Positions 36,183 through 61,287 of a stretch of 64,000 nucleotides of DNA are shown one piece after another. The number at the start of each line of letters is the position of its first letter. The first letter of the stretch is position 1. The stretch is from Clostridia bacterium (GTDB taxonomy: Bacteria; Bacillota; Clostridia; Christensenellales; CAG-138), in the NCBI GenBank assembly GCA_017524445.1, contig JAFXVP010000002.1, forward strand, positions 1 through 64,000, in the 5' to 3' direction. Both the position numbers and the translations under genes were made by a program. A model generated the notes under the pieces. It was not told where the DNA came from and did not search any database. It worked only from the letters and a program-made list of their open reading frames with translations.

Positions 36183-36198
36183 ATTGCATGCGGGCTGT

Positions 36199-36318
36199 GC
36201 CCGCAATTCACGCATCGAAAACGCAATTCACGTCCGGCAGAGACAATTCACGACGGGCCCGCCGTCAATTCATGTGCGAAGCACGATCCACGCGGGGCGT
36301 CGGGGTCGGCGCCCCGCT
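36199..36318 (+). repeat. Mini-hairpin array, AATTCA separators
   Basis: Four AATTCA(C/T) separators begin at 36205, 36225, 36245 and 36267, about 20 bp apart. Between them lie short self-complementary cores such as GCGGGC-TGT-GCCCGC, GACGGG-CC-CGCCGTC (partial) and GTGC-GAA-GCAC. It ends in a GC-rich hairpin (about 36292-36318). The cores differ but each folds on itself. Confidence 0.7.
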
Positions 36319-36332
36319 TAAAAACTGCAATT

Positions 36333-36458
36333 ACCCCCTGTGTGCAGCAGTGTAAAATTTGTAAATATTGTAAATGTGTTTCAATGACGGATTTCAGCAT
36401 ATATGATACTCTTTACAAAACTTACATTTTTTACAATATTTACATTCCTTACACACCC
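36333..36458 (+). repeat. Iteron inverted-repeat element, copy 1
   Basis: It opens with ACCCCCTGTGTGCAGCAG. Then TGTAAA iterons start at 36351, 36360 and 36369 (exactly 9 bp apart). An AT-rich centre follows, and an inverted arm has TTACA at 36413, 36422, 36431, 36440 and 36449 (again exactly 9 bp apart), ending ACACACCC. The opening matches copy 2 (60835-60966, opposite orientation). No coding capacity. Confidence 0.75.
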
Positions 36459-36565
36459 AGTACGGATCGCGTTTGTGTTTTTCGACAGTCTGCGCTTCGC
36501 TTCGACGGAAGATCGCACGCTTTCCGCGCGTACCGTCGCCTCCTGCACGGCGCATCAATATTACA

Positions 36566-38952: not shown

Positions 38953-39078
38953 TTGCCATCAAGAGTGCGCGAGAGACAAGCTCCGTGACCGCACAGCAAC
39001 CTGCCTGAGTAAGGTGCTAAGGCTTGAGCGATGGCAAGATAAAAACGTTCCGTCCCGGCGATCTGTCCGGGACTTTTT
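38953..39078 (+). ncRNA. SAM-I/IV-like riboswitch with terminator
   Basis: P1 pairs TTGCCATC (38953-38960) with GATGGCAA (39030-39037). P2 pairs GTGCG with CGCAC around a kink-turn-like internal loop. The SAM-I core GCAACC (38996-39001) and AAGGTGCTAA (39011-39020) form P3. There is no P4. Loop 2 CAA can pair with TTG at 39024-39026, and loop 3 GCC (39003-39005) with GGC (39021-39023), the two pseudoknots expected in the SAM-I/IV variant. The terminator GTCCCGG/CCGGGAC plus TTTTT (39052-39078) follows 15 nt later. I see no obvious antiterminator. The next gene starts 100 nt beyond. Confidence 0.65.
39052..39078 (+). terminator. Riboswitch terminator
   Basis: A 7-bp GC-rich stem with an 8-nt loop is followed by TTTTTCTTTTC, 15 nt after riboswitch helix P1. 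Confidence 0.85.
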
Positions 39079-40520: not shown

Positions 40521-41198
40521 ATGCTGATCCGTCTCGAACACATTGAAAAAACGTACGGCACCCCGGACCGACCGGTCCCGGTGCTGCACGACGTCAATTT
40601 TGCCATGGAGGAAGGCGCGTATTACGCGATCATGGGTCCTTCCGGCTCCGGCAAGTCAACGCTGATGAACATCCTCGGGTATCTCGATACGCCGACCGGC
40701 GGAACCTATTATTTTGAGGACGTCGACAACAGCCGCGCGTCCGACGCCGAGATGGCGAAGATCCGCAACGAAAAGATCGGATTCGTGTTCCAGTCGTTCC
40801 ATCTGCTGCCGCAGCGCAAAGCATGGGAAAACGTCGCGCTGCCGCTGCTGTACGGAAACGTGCCGAAAAAGGAACGGCGCGCACGCGCCGAACAGGCGCT
40901 CTGTGAAGTCGGTCTCGAAGACCGCATGGACTTTTTCCCCACGCAGCTTTCCGGCGGTCAGTGCCAGCGGGTCGCGATCGCACGGGCGATCTGCACGCGG
41001 CCGAAGCTGCTCCTTGCCGACGAACCGACCGGCGCGCTGGATTCGAAATCCGGTCAGCAGATCATGGATATCTTCGACGCGCTGCATGAACGCGGCATGT
41101 CGATCATGATGATCACGCACGAGCTCGCGGTCGCAAGGCGCGCTTCCCGCATGCTCTTTATCTACGACGGTGTCTTGACGGGAGGCGATGAGCCATGA
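40521..41198 (+). CDS. MacB/LolD-type ABC transporter ATPase
   Basis: The 225-residue ATPase has Walker A GPSGSGKST (39-47), signature LSGGQCQRVAIARA, Walker B LLLADEPTGALD and H-loop MMITHELAV. This is the MacB/FtsE/LolD subfamily, which powers mechanotransmission rather than classical pumping. GGAGG lies 5 nt before ATG 40521. The stop overlaps the next start by ATGA. Confidence 0.93.
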   Translation: MLIRLEHIEKTYGTPDRPVPVLHDVNFAMEEGAYYAIMGPSGSGKSTLMNILGYLDTPTGGTYYFEDVDNSRASDAEMAKIRNEKIGFVFQSFHLLPQRKAWENVALPLLYGNVPKKERRARAEQALCEVGLEDRMDFFPTQLSGGQCQRVAIARAICTRPKLLLADEPTGALDSKSGQQIMDIFDALHERGMSIMMITHELAVARRASRMLFIYDGVLTGGDEP

Positions 41199-43450
41199 AA
41201 CGTACATTGAAGATCGTTCTCGTCAGCATCCTGTGCGTCGCGCTGATCGGCGGCAGCATCTTTGCCTACGTGAAGCTCCGCAAGCCCACGCCGTGCGAGG
41301 TCTATCCCGCCATGAACTGGATGATGTCCTACATGCCGAACCAATCGTATCTGTACGGCATCGTGACCTCGGACGCATCCCAGATCATCACGAAGAACAA
41401 CGAGCGCAACGTTCTTGAGGTGCTCGTGTCGCCTGGCGACGTCGTCTCCGTCGGCGATCCGCTTTTACAGTACGACGCGACGCGCTCGCAGCTCTCCTTT
41501 GAAGAAAATCAGCTGGATCTTCAGAAGCTCGAAAATCAGCTCCGTTCCGAATACGTCGACTACAAGCGGTTCTCCGGCACGGATTATCCGGACCCGCTTC
41601 TGACGCCGACGCCGTCCCCCACGCCGACCCCCTCGCCGACGCCCAAGTCGGCCTCAGCCGAAGACGTCGGCGGCGCAAGACACCTGTCGCTCCGGACGGG
41701 CGACGATCCGGTCGCTCCCGTCAGCGGAACCGGCACCGAGGCGGACCCGTTCGTGTATGAATTCGAAGCGGCGGCTCCCGTGACCTACGCCTTTATCCGA
41801 TCGCTTATTGCGCAGGCTCCGGAACACGCGTCCGCCGTCTTCGCGCGGATCGTGCAGCCCGAAGCGGAGATCCTGCTTTCGGTCACACTGTCCGAGGAGG
41901 TCTCTTTCTCGGTCAATCTCAAGGGTGAATCCGCACCGACGCCCACGCCAAGCGGGGACCCGGACGAGTCCGGGGAGGATCCCGTCTATCCCGACCCGCC
42001 GATCGGCGGCGAAGGCACCGAGACCAATCCGGTCGTCTATTCGTATACGCCCGGCATGACCGTCACGAACGCGTTTTTGAAAGCGCAGTCCGAACTCGCC
42101 GCGTCGCAGGAAGCGAGCATGTATGTAAAGCTGCAGGCGGAACAGTTTTCGATTGATCTCGTGTTCGAGACGGACGGCACATTCTCATTTACTACGACTG
42201 TGAACACGGCTGAACCGACGCCGACCCCGACGGCAACCGCGAGCGCGGAACCCACGCCGACCGCAACGGCGACGGCAAGTGCGGAGCCCACCGCAACGGC
42301 AACCGCAAGCGCGGAACCCACGGCAACGGCGACCGCAAGCGCGGAACCCACCGCAACGGCGACTGCAAGCGCGGAACCCACCGCAACGGCGACTGCAAGC
42401 GCGGAGCCCACGGCTACGGCGACCGCAAGTGCGGAACCGACCGCAACGGCGACCGCAAGCGCGGAACCCTCCGCAACCGCGACCGCAAGCGCGACGGCGA
42501 CGGCAACCCCAACGGCAACACCGACACCTACCGCAACGCCGACGGCGACCCCGACGCGCACGCCTACCCCGACGCCGAAACGCACGCCCACTCCGACGCC
42601 GAAACGCACGCCCACCCCGACTCCGAAACGCACGCCCACCCCGACGCCGCGGCGCACGCCGACCAAGAAGCCCACGGCGACCCCGACGCCCACGCCGTAT
42701 GACGAGGCGGCACATATGACAAAGGAAGAGCGCGCCACGCGCGCAAAGGAGATCGCGGCGAGCATCCGCCAGGACGAGCTGCTCTACCGTCAGCTCGTGC
42801 TCGACATCGAAAAGGCGGAGAGCAGCGGTCTCGAAGGCATCCTGTACTCCGAGATCAACGGCACGGTGATGACGGCCGTGCAGCCGGATGAAGTCACGCT
42901 CGGCGAGGTGCTCGTGGAGGTGCGCGGCGGCACCGGACTGCACATCAGCGTGATCGTCGGCGAAGACGAACTTCAAAACTACCCTGTCGGCACCGAGCTT
43001 TCCGGCTTCTCCTATCAGATGCAGGACACCGTGACCGCGCGGGTCGCGCAGGTCGGCACCATGCCGATTTCCACCAACTATTCCGGAAACGGCAACCCGA
43101 ATTCCTCCGGATATCTTCTGGTGCTCGACATCACCGGCGACGTGATCCCGGGCGTCGGCGAATACATCGAGTTTTCGGATTATTCCTCGCTGTTTGAACA
43201 GGGCACGATCTATCTGCACGAAGCGTTTCTGCGTGAGATCAACGGCGTGACCTGTCTTTACGCCGCGAACGAGGACAACGTGCTCGTGAAGTACACCGTG
43301 ACGACCGGCAGCCGGCAGAACGAATACGTCGAGCTGATCGGTTCGCCGATCTCGGCTGAGGACCGCATCGCGTTCCCGTACGACAAGAACTGCAAGGAAG
43401 GCAATCCTGTCGAGGACGCGAAGGGCGGCGTCTTCTACGGCGGCTGGTAA
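41195..43450 (+). CDS. MacA/HlyD-type adaptor 2 with long Pro/Thr/Ala insert
   Basis: The 751-residue protein has a signal/anchor (about 5-25) and a first lipoyl half (VLEVLVSPGDVVSVGDPLLQ). The alpha-hairpin is broken by an insert of about 370 residues, then the hairpin return and second lipoyl half follow (EGILYSEINGTVMTAVQPDE). The insert contains two tandem related domains (GTGTEADPFVYEFEAAAPVT and GEGTETNPVVYSYTPGMTVT), then a TATASAEPTA minisatellite (30-bp units, about 42,230-42,510) and TPTPKRTP repeats. The frame is intact. The insert is probably an extended spacer. Confidence 0.82.
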   Translation: MKRTLKIVLVSILCVALIGGSIFAYVKLRKPTPCEVYPAMNWMMSYMPNQSYLYGIVTSDASQIITKNNERNVLEVLVSPGDVVSVGDPLLQYDATRSQLSFEENQLDLQKLENQLRSEYVDYKRFSGTDYPDPLLTPTPSPTPTPSPTPKSASAEDVGGARHLSLRTGDDPVAPVSGTGTEADPFVYEFEAAAPVTYAFIRSLIAQAPEHASAVFARIVQPEAEILLSVTLSEEVSFSVNLKGESAPTPTPSGDPDESGEDPVYPDPPIGGEGTETNPVVYSYTPGMTVTNAFLKAQSELAASQEASMYVKLQAEQFSIDLVFETDGTFSFTTTVNTAEPTPTPTATASAEPTPTATATASAEPTATATASAEPTATATASAEPTATATASAEPTATATASAEPTATATASAEPTATATASAEPSATATASATATATPTATPTPTATPTATPTRTPTPTPKRTPTPTPKRTPTPTPKRTPTPTPRRTPTKKPTATPTPTPYDEAAHMTKEERATRAKEIAASIRQDELLYRQLVLDIEKAESSGLEGILYSEINGTVMTAVQPDEVTLGEVLVEVRGGTGLHISVIVGEDELQNYPVGTELSGFSYQMQDTVTARVAQVGTMPISTNYSGNGNPNSSGYLLVLDITGDVIPGVGEYIEFSDYSSLFEQGTIYLHEAFLREINGVTCLYAANEDNVLVKYTVTTGSRQNEYVELIGSPISAEDRIAFPYDKNCKEGNPVEDAKGGVFYGGW
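42230..42510 (+). repeat. 30-bp coding minisatellite in adaptor 2
   Basis: About seven to eight near-identical 30-bp units encode SAEPTATATA. Synonymous third-position differences (ACGGCGACC, ACGGCAACC, ACGGCGACT) show units of different ages. Confidence 0.85.
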
Positions 43451-60834: not shown

Positions 60835-60966
60835 ACGGGGGTGTGTGTAACACTGTCGCATTTGTCGCATTTGTCGCAGAGATGAATGATTATGATATAA
60901 TAATAGATATACAGCAGTATATTGACTACATTTGCGACATTTGCGACGCTGCTACACACAGGGGGT
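60835..60966 (-). repeat. Iteron inverted-repeat element, copy 2 (reverse orientation)
   Basis: On the plus strand TGTCGCA occurs at 60854, 60863 and 60872 (exactly 9 bp apart). An AT-rich centre and TGCGAC at 60933 and 60942 (9 bp apart) follow, then GCTGCTACACACAGGGGGT. The last part is the reverse complement of the opening of copy 1 (ACCCCCTGTGTGYAGCAG). The iteron differs from copy 1 (TGTAAATAT). Confidence 0.75.
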
Positions 60967-61065: not shown

Positions 61066-61287
61066 GGATGTCCGAATTCGGGTCTGTGGTTGCAAGTCGA
61101 GGCCAGTCGCAGGCGAAACGATCCACGTAAGCGGGCCAAAGCGCCCGTGAGCATGGTGCGGCTTAGAAGTAAGTCCGGCCGGCGGTATTCCGCCGAGAGG
61201 GGCAGTAGTGGGGAGCACGGCTTATGAGCGAACCCTCCTGCCGGCGAGTGTGGGGGCAAAGACCAGGTCAGCCGAACGCGGAGATCA
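61066..61287 (+). ncRNA. Large structured RNA upstream of a zinc-ribbon gene (raiA-motif candidate)
   Basis: A long-range helix closes the RNA: GAT and TCCG-AA-TTCGG (61067-61081) pair with CCGAA-CG-CGGA and ATC (61272-61286). Inside lie CGGGC (61132-61136)/GCCCG (61143-61147), CGGCGG (61180-61185)/CCGCCG (61190-61195) with a TATT loop, and GAGGG (61197-61201)/CCCTC (61233-61237). The purine-rich joins look conserved. No terminator precedes the gene at 61323. Size, closed architecture and Clostridia host suggest the raiA motif RNA, but I cannot verify the consensus. RNase P, tmRNA, SRP and 6S RNA do not fit. Confidence 0.55.

Follow-up and report, generated by a model that had tools for sequence, protein, structure and literature searches.

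The replication origins of phage-inducible chromosomal islands (PICIs) lie immediately 3′ of the rep gene, and those that have been analysed always comprise two iteron sets flanking an AT-rich region (PMC6092414). Rep of the Staphylococcus aureus pathogenicity islands (SaPIs) is reported to bind the downstream iterons via its C-terminal domain, apparently as two hexamers (PMC7581432). Likewise, the C-terminal domain of Cch2, from the staphylococcal cassette chromosome mec (SCCmec), binds direct repeats just downstream of its operon (PMC7581432). IncQ plasmids readily yield satellites that retain only the origin (ori) through deletions with 7-15 bp of microhomology, and chromosomal integration of plasmid sequence followed in the satellite populations (PMC6925257). 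Here we describe an iteron array at positions 36333-36458 of a 64,000-nucleotide stretch (the window; positions 1 to 64,000 of contig JAFXVP010000002.1, assembly GCA_017524445.1) from an uncultured Clostridia bacterium, whose named relatives are metagenome-assembled genomes, one of them from water-buffalo reticulum. We consider it probable that this element is a solo, 3′-derived replication origin of the PICI/SaPI style, left stranded in the chromosome by a small primase-helicase mobile replicon.

An earlier note on this DNA, made from its letters alone, had described three TGTAAA and five TTACA iterons in 9-bp steps, oppositely oriented about an AT-rich centre, and every position was reproduced. 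The TGTAAA units start on the plus strand at 36351, 36360 and 36369, and the inverted TTACA units at 36413, 36422, 36431, 36440 and 36449, with a pitch of exactly 9 bp in each arm; CTTACA (= TGTAAG) stands at two of the five units of the right arm. This regularity is indeed beyond chance, since a search for three TGTAAA units repeating every 9 bp, allowing up to three mismatches, gives four overlapping matches in the window, all at the element, and none in 100 dinucleotide shuffles. The arms are 84% complementary over 25 nt, and their 3-nt spacers differ between arms. The related unit is larger than 126 bp, as homology to a gene-linked copy spans 36340-36483. The features of the window that belong to this family are as follows.

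36322 to 36332, no strand: outer flank CTGCAATTA ahead of the C-run, from by-eye comparison of copies and the least secure part.
36333 to 36350, plus strand: terminal box ACCCCCTGTGTGCAGCAG, which recurs exactly or nearly so at other places in the genome and genus.
36351 to 36374, plus strand: left arm, three 9-bp iterons TGTAAANNN, from a pattern search and comparison of copies.
36375 to 36411, no strand: AT-rich centre, the presumed melting site, with a 29-bp core of 31% GC.
36412 to 36453, minus strand: right arm, five inverted 9-bp iterons TGTAA(A/G)NNN, from a pattern search and comparison of copies.
36449 to 36458, minus strand: second terminal box GGGTGTGTAA, overlapping the outermost iteron in part.
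36461 to 36483, minus strand: coding remnant of a RepA-like helicase gene (its final 23 nt), 19 of 23 identical to locus L066 and contiguous with the array alignment.
60837 to 60965, no strand: second family copy, with a box, iterons TGTCGCATT at 60854, 60863 and 60872, a centre, inverted iterons TGTCGCAAA at 60930-60947 and a box.

The second copy matches the first in regularity and is built from a different unit, TGTCGCATT. Other copies show an outer TGTNNC-like motif about 4 nt beyond the G/C run, again the least secure part and read by eye.

Several copies of the array adjoin the 3′ end of a single gene family, a RepA-like AAA_25 helicase. In comparisons against Pfam, PHROGs, NCBIfam and PDB, this protein matches AAA_25 (E 2.7e-33) and RSF1010 RepA (1g8y; phmmer 2.4e-5), and its fold aligns with that of RSF1010 RepA at a Z score of 21.6 over 218 residues. 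A gene for a CHC2 zinc-finger primase (E 6e-16) usually lies upstream of the helicase, as at L062, L092, L096 and L100, and the two-gene units contain these two genes only, with no RepC. The order in intact relatives is a palindrome, the CHC2 primase gene, the RepA-like AAA_25 helicase gene, its stop codon, iterons, an AT-rich centre and inverted iterons. The array stands immediately 3′ of the helicase gene at L065, L066, L067, L087 and others; the stop codon overlaps the element at L065 (TAAAGGGGGTGTGTG) and abuts it at L066 (TAGGGTGTGTAAAG).

The window copy has kept a trace of this arrangement. Its minus strand from 36483 to 36340 aligns over about 145 columns with the array and helicase 3′ end of L066, a sister genome locus (score 173, shuffle maximum 29), and the identity within the 23-nt coding end has a P of about 8e-8 for a random stretch. 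Beyond this remnant, the stop position at 36460-36458 reads CTG in place of TAG. Because the alignment continues from the array into the final 23 nt of the helicase gene, the window element is, as far as sequence comparison can tell, the solo 3′ (ori-side) remnant of a larger unit. Other solo copies agree: at least 20 nt of helicase sequence is kept in seven of 19 entries (the window copy and six other solo copies), and nearly all solo copies have as their best match a gene-linked copy with the same or closest iteron type. So does L090, in which the first CHC2 codons are joined to the helicase C-terminus and array at a 7-bp microhomology, TCGAAGG. The helicase gene occurs nine times in the bacterium's own genome, as two full genes, two genes cut by contig ends and five C-terminal fragments; it is cut short by the ends of contigs C35 and C45, the second of which is orthologous to the L066 locus.

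The 5′ edge of the primase-helicase unit carries a conserved palindrome, CGGACAAAATTCCGGGAAAATTGTCCG (L062, L092, L094, L096 and L100), possibly an operator or a unit boundary. At L067, L068 and L079 (own genome C40, G007 C21), helicase genes have outward-pointing TGTCAC arrays upstream or downstream; arrays on both sides of a gene would join as the two-armed form in a circle. G000 and G007 share a single-copy helicase gene in the same place, ahead of a hutH-like gene.

The C-terminal tail of the helicase switches together with the iterons. Helicases that are mostly 79-100% alike elsewhere drop to 40-45% identity over the last 25 residues when their iterons differ, and same-iteron pairs keep the tail at 91% and 95%, in a comparison that leaves out the L090 rows. 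The predicted helicase structure (mean pLDDT, the predicted local distance difference test, 86.7) ends in a helix-strand-helix-helix-strand-wing-strand order, that is, a winged helix. Taken alone, this domain aligns with the iteron-bound RepE initiator at Z 6.8 over 70 residues; Foldseek gave no match for it below E 0.08, and a second structural comparison returned matches to winged helices, unrelated ones among them, at Z about 7. These models and the paired changes make the C-terminal domain of the initiator helicase a candidate for binding the iterons.

Neither outcome that would have refuted the earlier note, an absence of further copies or a loss of phasing, was found: phased copies occur in this genome and its relatives, mostly at 9 bp and, in three elements (L067, L050 and L052), at 8 bp. 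A search for the terminal box ACCCCCTGTGTGCAGCA that allowed up to three mismatches gave 15 matches in the own genome, a few of the weakest of which fall inside genes, and none in the reversed control; additional matches occur in sister species. When the unit sequence is ignored, the pattern of a box followed by TGT every 9 bp finds 30 matches in 6 of 103 family genomes, with none in the reversed control, and all 30 are confined to one genus of uncultured gut Clostridia. The common anatomy leads from a G/C run through a TGTGTG(T/C)A(G/A)C box and 2-12 iterons to a centre that spans about 20-300 bp, and from there through inverted iterons and another box to a second G/C run. Each copy has one iteron sequence that is common to both arms and varies from copy to copy: TGTAAA, TGTCGC, TGTTGC, TGTAGC, TGTCAC, TGTTGA or TGTTTA at 9 bp, and GTAACAGC or GTAGACGC at about 8 bp.

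Unit positions 1-5 agree at 0.89-1.0 within and between the arms of the same copy, positions 4-5 at 0.38-0.48 between different elements, and spacer positions 7-9 at only 0.24-0.48 between arms, the iterons having been entered manually with TGT as the anchor, which makes agreement at positions 1-3 automatic. Conserved unit cores beside disagreeing spacers argue for a sequence-specific duplex-binding unit rather than a paired stem. Among the possibilities raised in the earlier note, a multimeric protein-binding site is thus well supported at the level of sequence: a 5-6 bp core is common to both arms, the pitch is fixed and the spacers are free, and in relatives the array lies behind an initiator-type helicase gene whose C-terminal tail switches with it.

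Some copies depart from the common form. One element end is tandemly duplicated, with about 138 bp of flank, at L005 (own genome C18:82300-82460). L044 (own genome C71:20393) is a minimal element, CCCCCCTGCGTGTAGCAGCGTAACACACACTCCCCCC, with both boxes and hardly any iterons, and adjoins a helicase C-terminal fragment. In L271 (1520-1790) and L058, the middle region holds a tandem repeat of about 20 bp, GAATGGTTACGGTAAACGG, whose copy number varies between elements.

Arrays of other units occur at the same position behind the helicase in more distant homologues of the genus (L069, L070, L071 and L072), those of L071 and L072 being degenerate and read by eye. A strong lag-9 self-match within 150 bp behind the stop codon is found at 7 of 75 distinct helicase loci, which include viral contigs and mobilizable elements, versus 0.3% of control windows. 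The units of these arrays are unrelated in sequence, and among other lags lag 8 alone has a match, at one locus. A phased test of both arms is positive at 8 of 89 loci; shuffles predict 0.125, and among genomic windows 12 of 2006 pass. The lag and both-arm tests were needed here, an exact repeated 6-mer search of the distant homologues having found almost nothing. For viral relatives, query P0002 alone gave none, and alignment A1 gave 140, of which 80 were kept. Arrays outside the genus are as follows.

L191: ACGGCACAA, five times.
L193: TTGGCGGTC, in both arms.
L213: TTGGCAACC.
L201: a further array.

The same helicase family thus occurs with unrelated 9-bp arrays in other prophages and mobilizable elements. 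L104 is an 8.5-kb relaxase/recombinase plasmid carrying the helicase locus, and L291 is a small element with the helicase, an array, a gp3-like packaging protein (a match just under Pfam's cut-off), a helix-turn-helix regulator and an integrase. Because many distant loci fail the tests, a 9-bp array behind the helicase is a strong tendency, not a law.

We envisage the following mechanism. The C-terminal winged helix of the helicase would bind the iteron cores of 5-6 bp that recur every 9 bp along each arm, and two oppositely oriented helicase assemblies would then flank the AT-rich centre and melt it. Either the primase of the unit or the host primase would start replication, as proposed for SaPI/PICI Rep at its origin. 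Loss of the genes would leave ori-only, 5′-truncated or internally deleted derivatives, which could be inert relics or, by analogy with IncQ satellite plasmids, could be replicated in trans. As for the window copy itself, it could be inert, it could be replicated in trans, or it could serve as a decoy.

A bolder proposal would make the solo iteron palindromes a separate functional class, either as ori-only satellites, scattered through the chromosome, that matching RepA-like helicases replicate in trans, or as decoys titrating the initiators of incoming relatives. We regard this as unlikely. If it were true, the fast switching of iterons and helicase wings would reflect an arms race over initiator-origin specificity, and decoys would represent iteron incompatibility used as exclusion.

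Comparison of sites between genomes bears on whether the copies move. In several sister genomes, the genes flanking the first window copy are present and the element is absent, and L118 retains an apparent helicase-tail remnant, seen by eye, at this site. The second window copy is missing from all 12 orthologous regions that are readable on both flanks. The site of the G009 copy holds a decayed version in the own genome and is empty in three species. These occupied and empty sites, together with the truncated and internally deleted derivatives, lend partial support to the earlier suggestion of a non-autonomous mobile unit, but neither a clean target duplication nor a transposase was found. A transposon resembling a miniature inverted-repeat transposable element would treat the TGTGTG(T/C)A boxes and iterons as transposase-binding ends, the short copies as moved in trans and the helicase as a passenger. 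The two ends, which are similar, inverted and each next to a G/C run, are compatible with such an element, as are the occupied and empty sites and the internally deleted L090. However, no transposase was recognised near any copy examined, in fragmented genomes with neighbouring genes annotated in part; insertions extend beyond the boxes and show no clean target duplication at the compared sites; a shared transposase would not tolerate iterons that vary so freely among copies; and elements that lack these boxes still have their array fixed to the helicase stop codon. We therefore find a transposon distinctly unlikely.

The position of the array directly 3′ of the stop codon could instead mark an operator of the helicase gene or a structure that ends its transcription, in which the repeats bind a regulator or the helicase itself and limit expression, with no origin function. 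Plasmid initiators commonly bind control sites too. However, the two-armed design about an AT-rich centre and the retention of the array after gene loss fit an origin better. Position alone is not terminator-like, because arrays also lie upstream of some helicase genes, and no T run follows the array. An exclusively regulatory role is quite improbable.

Selection for the structure itself, as a long RNA or cruciform hairpin, is very improbable. The arms do fold (z -3.2 as DNA and as plus-strand RNA), and pRN1 offers a stem-loop origin behind a rep gene (PMC4234260), but inverted iterons fold by construction, and the minus-strand RNA has a z of only -1.4. The RNA hairpin raised in the earlier note was rejected, as the spacer positions are unpaired between arms, the arms of the C64 copy are unequal (12 versus 3 units) and an Rfam scan of the window matched nothing at the element. 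A coding repeat (TGT AAA NNN as Cys-Lys-X) is scarcely credible and was likewise rejected, for although the window and C64 copies have open frames with CKxCKx runs and the AAA/AAG variation looks synonymous, the frame is broken in other copies (the 8-bp pitch of L067, L050 and L052, and a frame shift in C44), the arrays begin behind a stop codon, other units encode unrelated residues and the two arms, being inverted, cannot both be read as CKx in one transcript.

Several points weigh against a stranded PICI-style origin. The fold of the C-terminal domain is matched modestly, at Z under 8, and physical adjacency by itself could account for the paired switching of tail and iterons. An integrase is absent from the two-gene units, and the compared insertion sites show no clean target duplication. 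Of the distant helicase loci, the majority do not pass the strict repeat tests. Moreover, the assemblies are fragmented, and the L066 contig ends at the array. We nevertheless favour the origin, because the parallels with PICI/SaPI, SCCmec Cch2 and IncQ systems match its position, its two-arm anatomy and its ori-only derivatives.

The surroundings of the two window copies hold other features. A mini-hairpin array, CAATTCA(C/T)G units with short hairpins between them, occupies 36187-36300; it does adjoin the element, as had been noted, but it is a separate, independent repeat family of the genus, because similar ATGAATTG/hairpin arrays adjoin other copies (L035, L037 and L079) and an array of this type is present at the orthologous site L110, where the element is missing. 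An S-adenosylmethionine (SAM) riboswitch lies away from the element at 38953-39037, and a raiA RNA (RF03072, 193.9 bits) lies at 61073-61280, immediately past the second copy. A 751-aa open reading frame at 41195-43450, with a long Pro/Thr/Ala/Ser repeat (TATATASAEP units), adjoins an ABC (ATP-binding cassette) transporter and a membrane-fusion-like protein.

PICI-like anatomy recurs behind the RepA-like helicases of unrelated mobile elements, and a simple rule, in which 8-9 bp iterons are sought behind the helicase stop codon, suggests candidate origins. The paired changes of helicase tail and iteron form a natural set for working out initiator-iteron specificity, and the solo copies would reveal the fate of origins as a replicon decays in the chromosome.

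Among known systems, RSF1010 and the other IncQ plasmids (RepA, RepB, RepC, oriV) share a homologous hexameric RepA-family helicase, but they have a separate iteron-binding RepC, whereas the two-gene unit lacks RepC and uses 8-9 bp iterons. IncQ iterons are about 20 bp. The deletions that produce IncQ satellites begin inside the rep genes, spare the origin and show 7-15 bp of microhomology (PMC6925257), much as at the TCGAAGG junction of L090. The alpha protein of phage P4, with ori/crr, and plasmid pRN1 likewise combine a primase-helicase, a C-terminal winged helix and a nearby repeat or stem-loop origin, and the pRN1 origin lies behind its rep gene and diverges fast in sequence (PMC4234260); unlike the present units, these are fused multidomain proteins, and pRN1 has an SF3 helicase and no iterons. 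In the SCCmec Cch2 primase-helicase operon, the helicase C-terminal domain also binds direct repeats just downstream (PMC7581432), although the helicase belongs to a different family and the 5-nt iterons form one direct-repeat region.

The closest likeness is to the pri-rep-ori module of PICIs and SaPIs (SaPIbov1, EcCICFT073; PMC6092414), in which the origin lies 3′ of the initiator gene, with two iteron sets about an AT-rich centre and an iteron sequence that varies between elements. In SaPI Rep, the C-terminal domain is reported to recognise the iterons (PMC7581432), a role that would fall here to the predicted winged helix. The differences are that the present helicase is RepA-like AAA_25, that the amplified units are without integrase and packaging genes, and that origin copies, solo or truncated, are scattered through the chromosome. 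A whole PICI unites an integrase, a divergent regulator, pri-rep-ori and often terS in one island, and beside the window copy and the two-gene units lie none of these other genes. The window copy would work like a PICI origin and is not itself a PICI.
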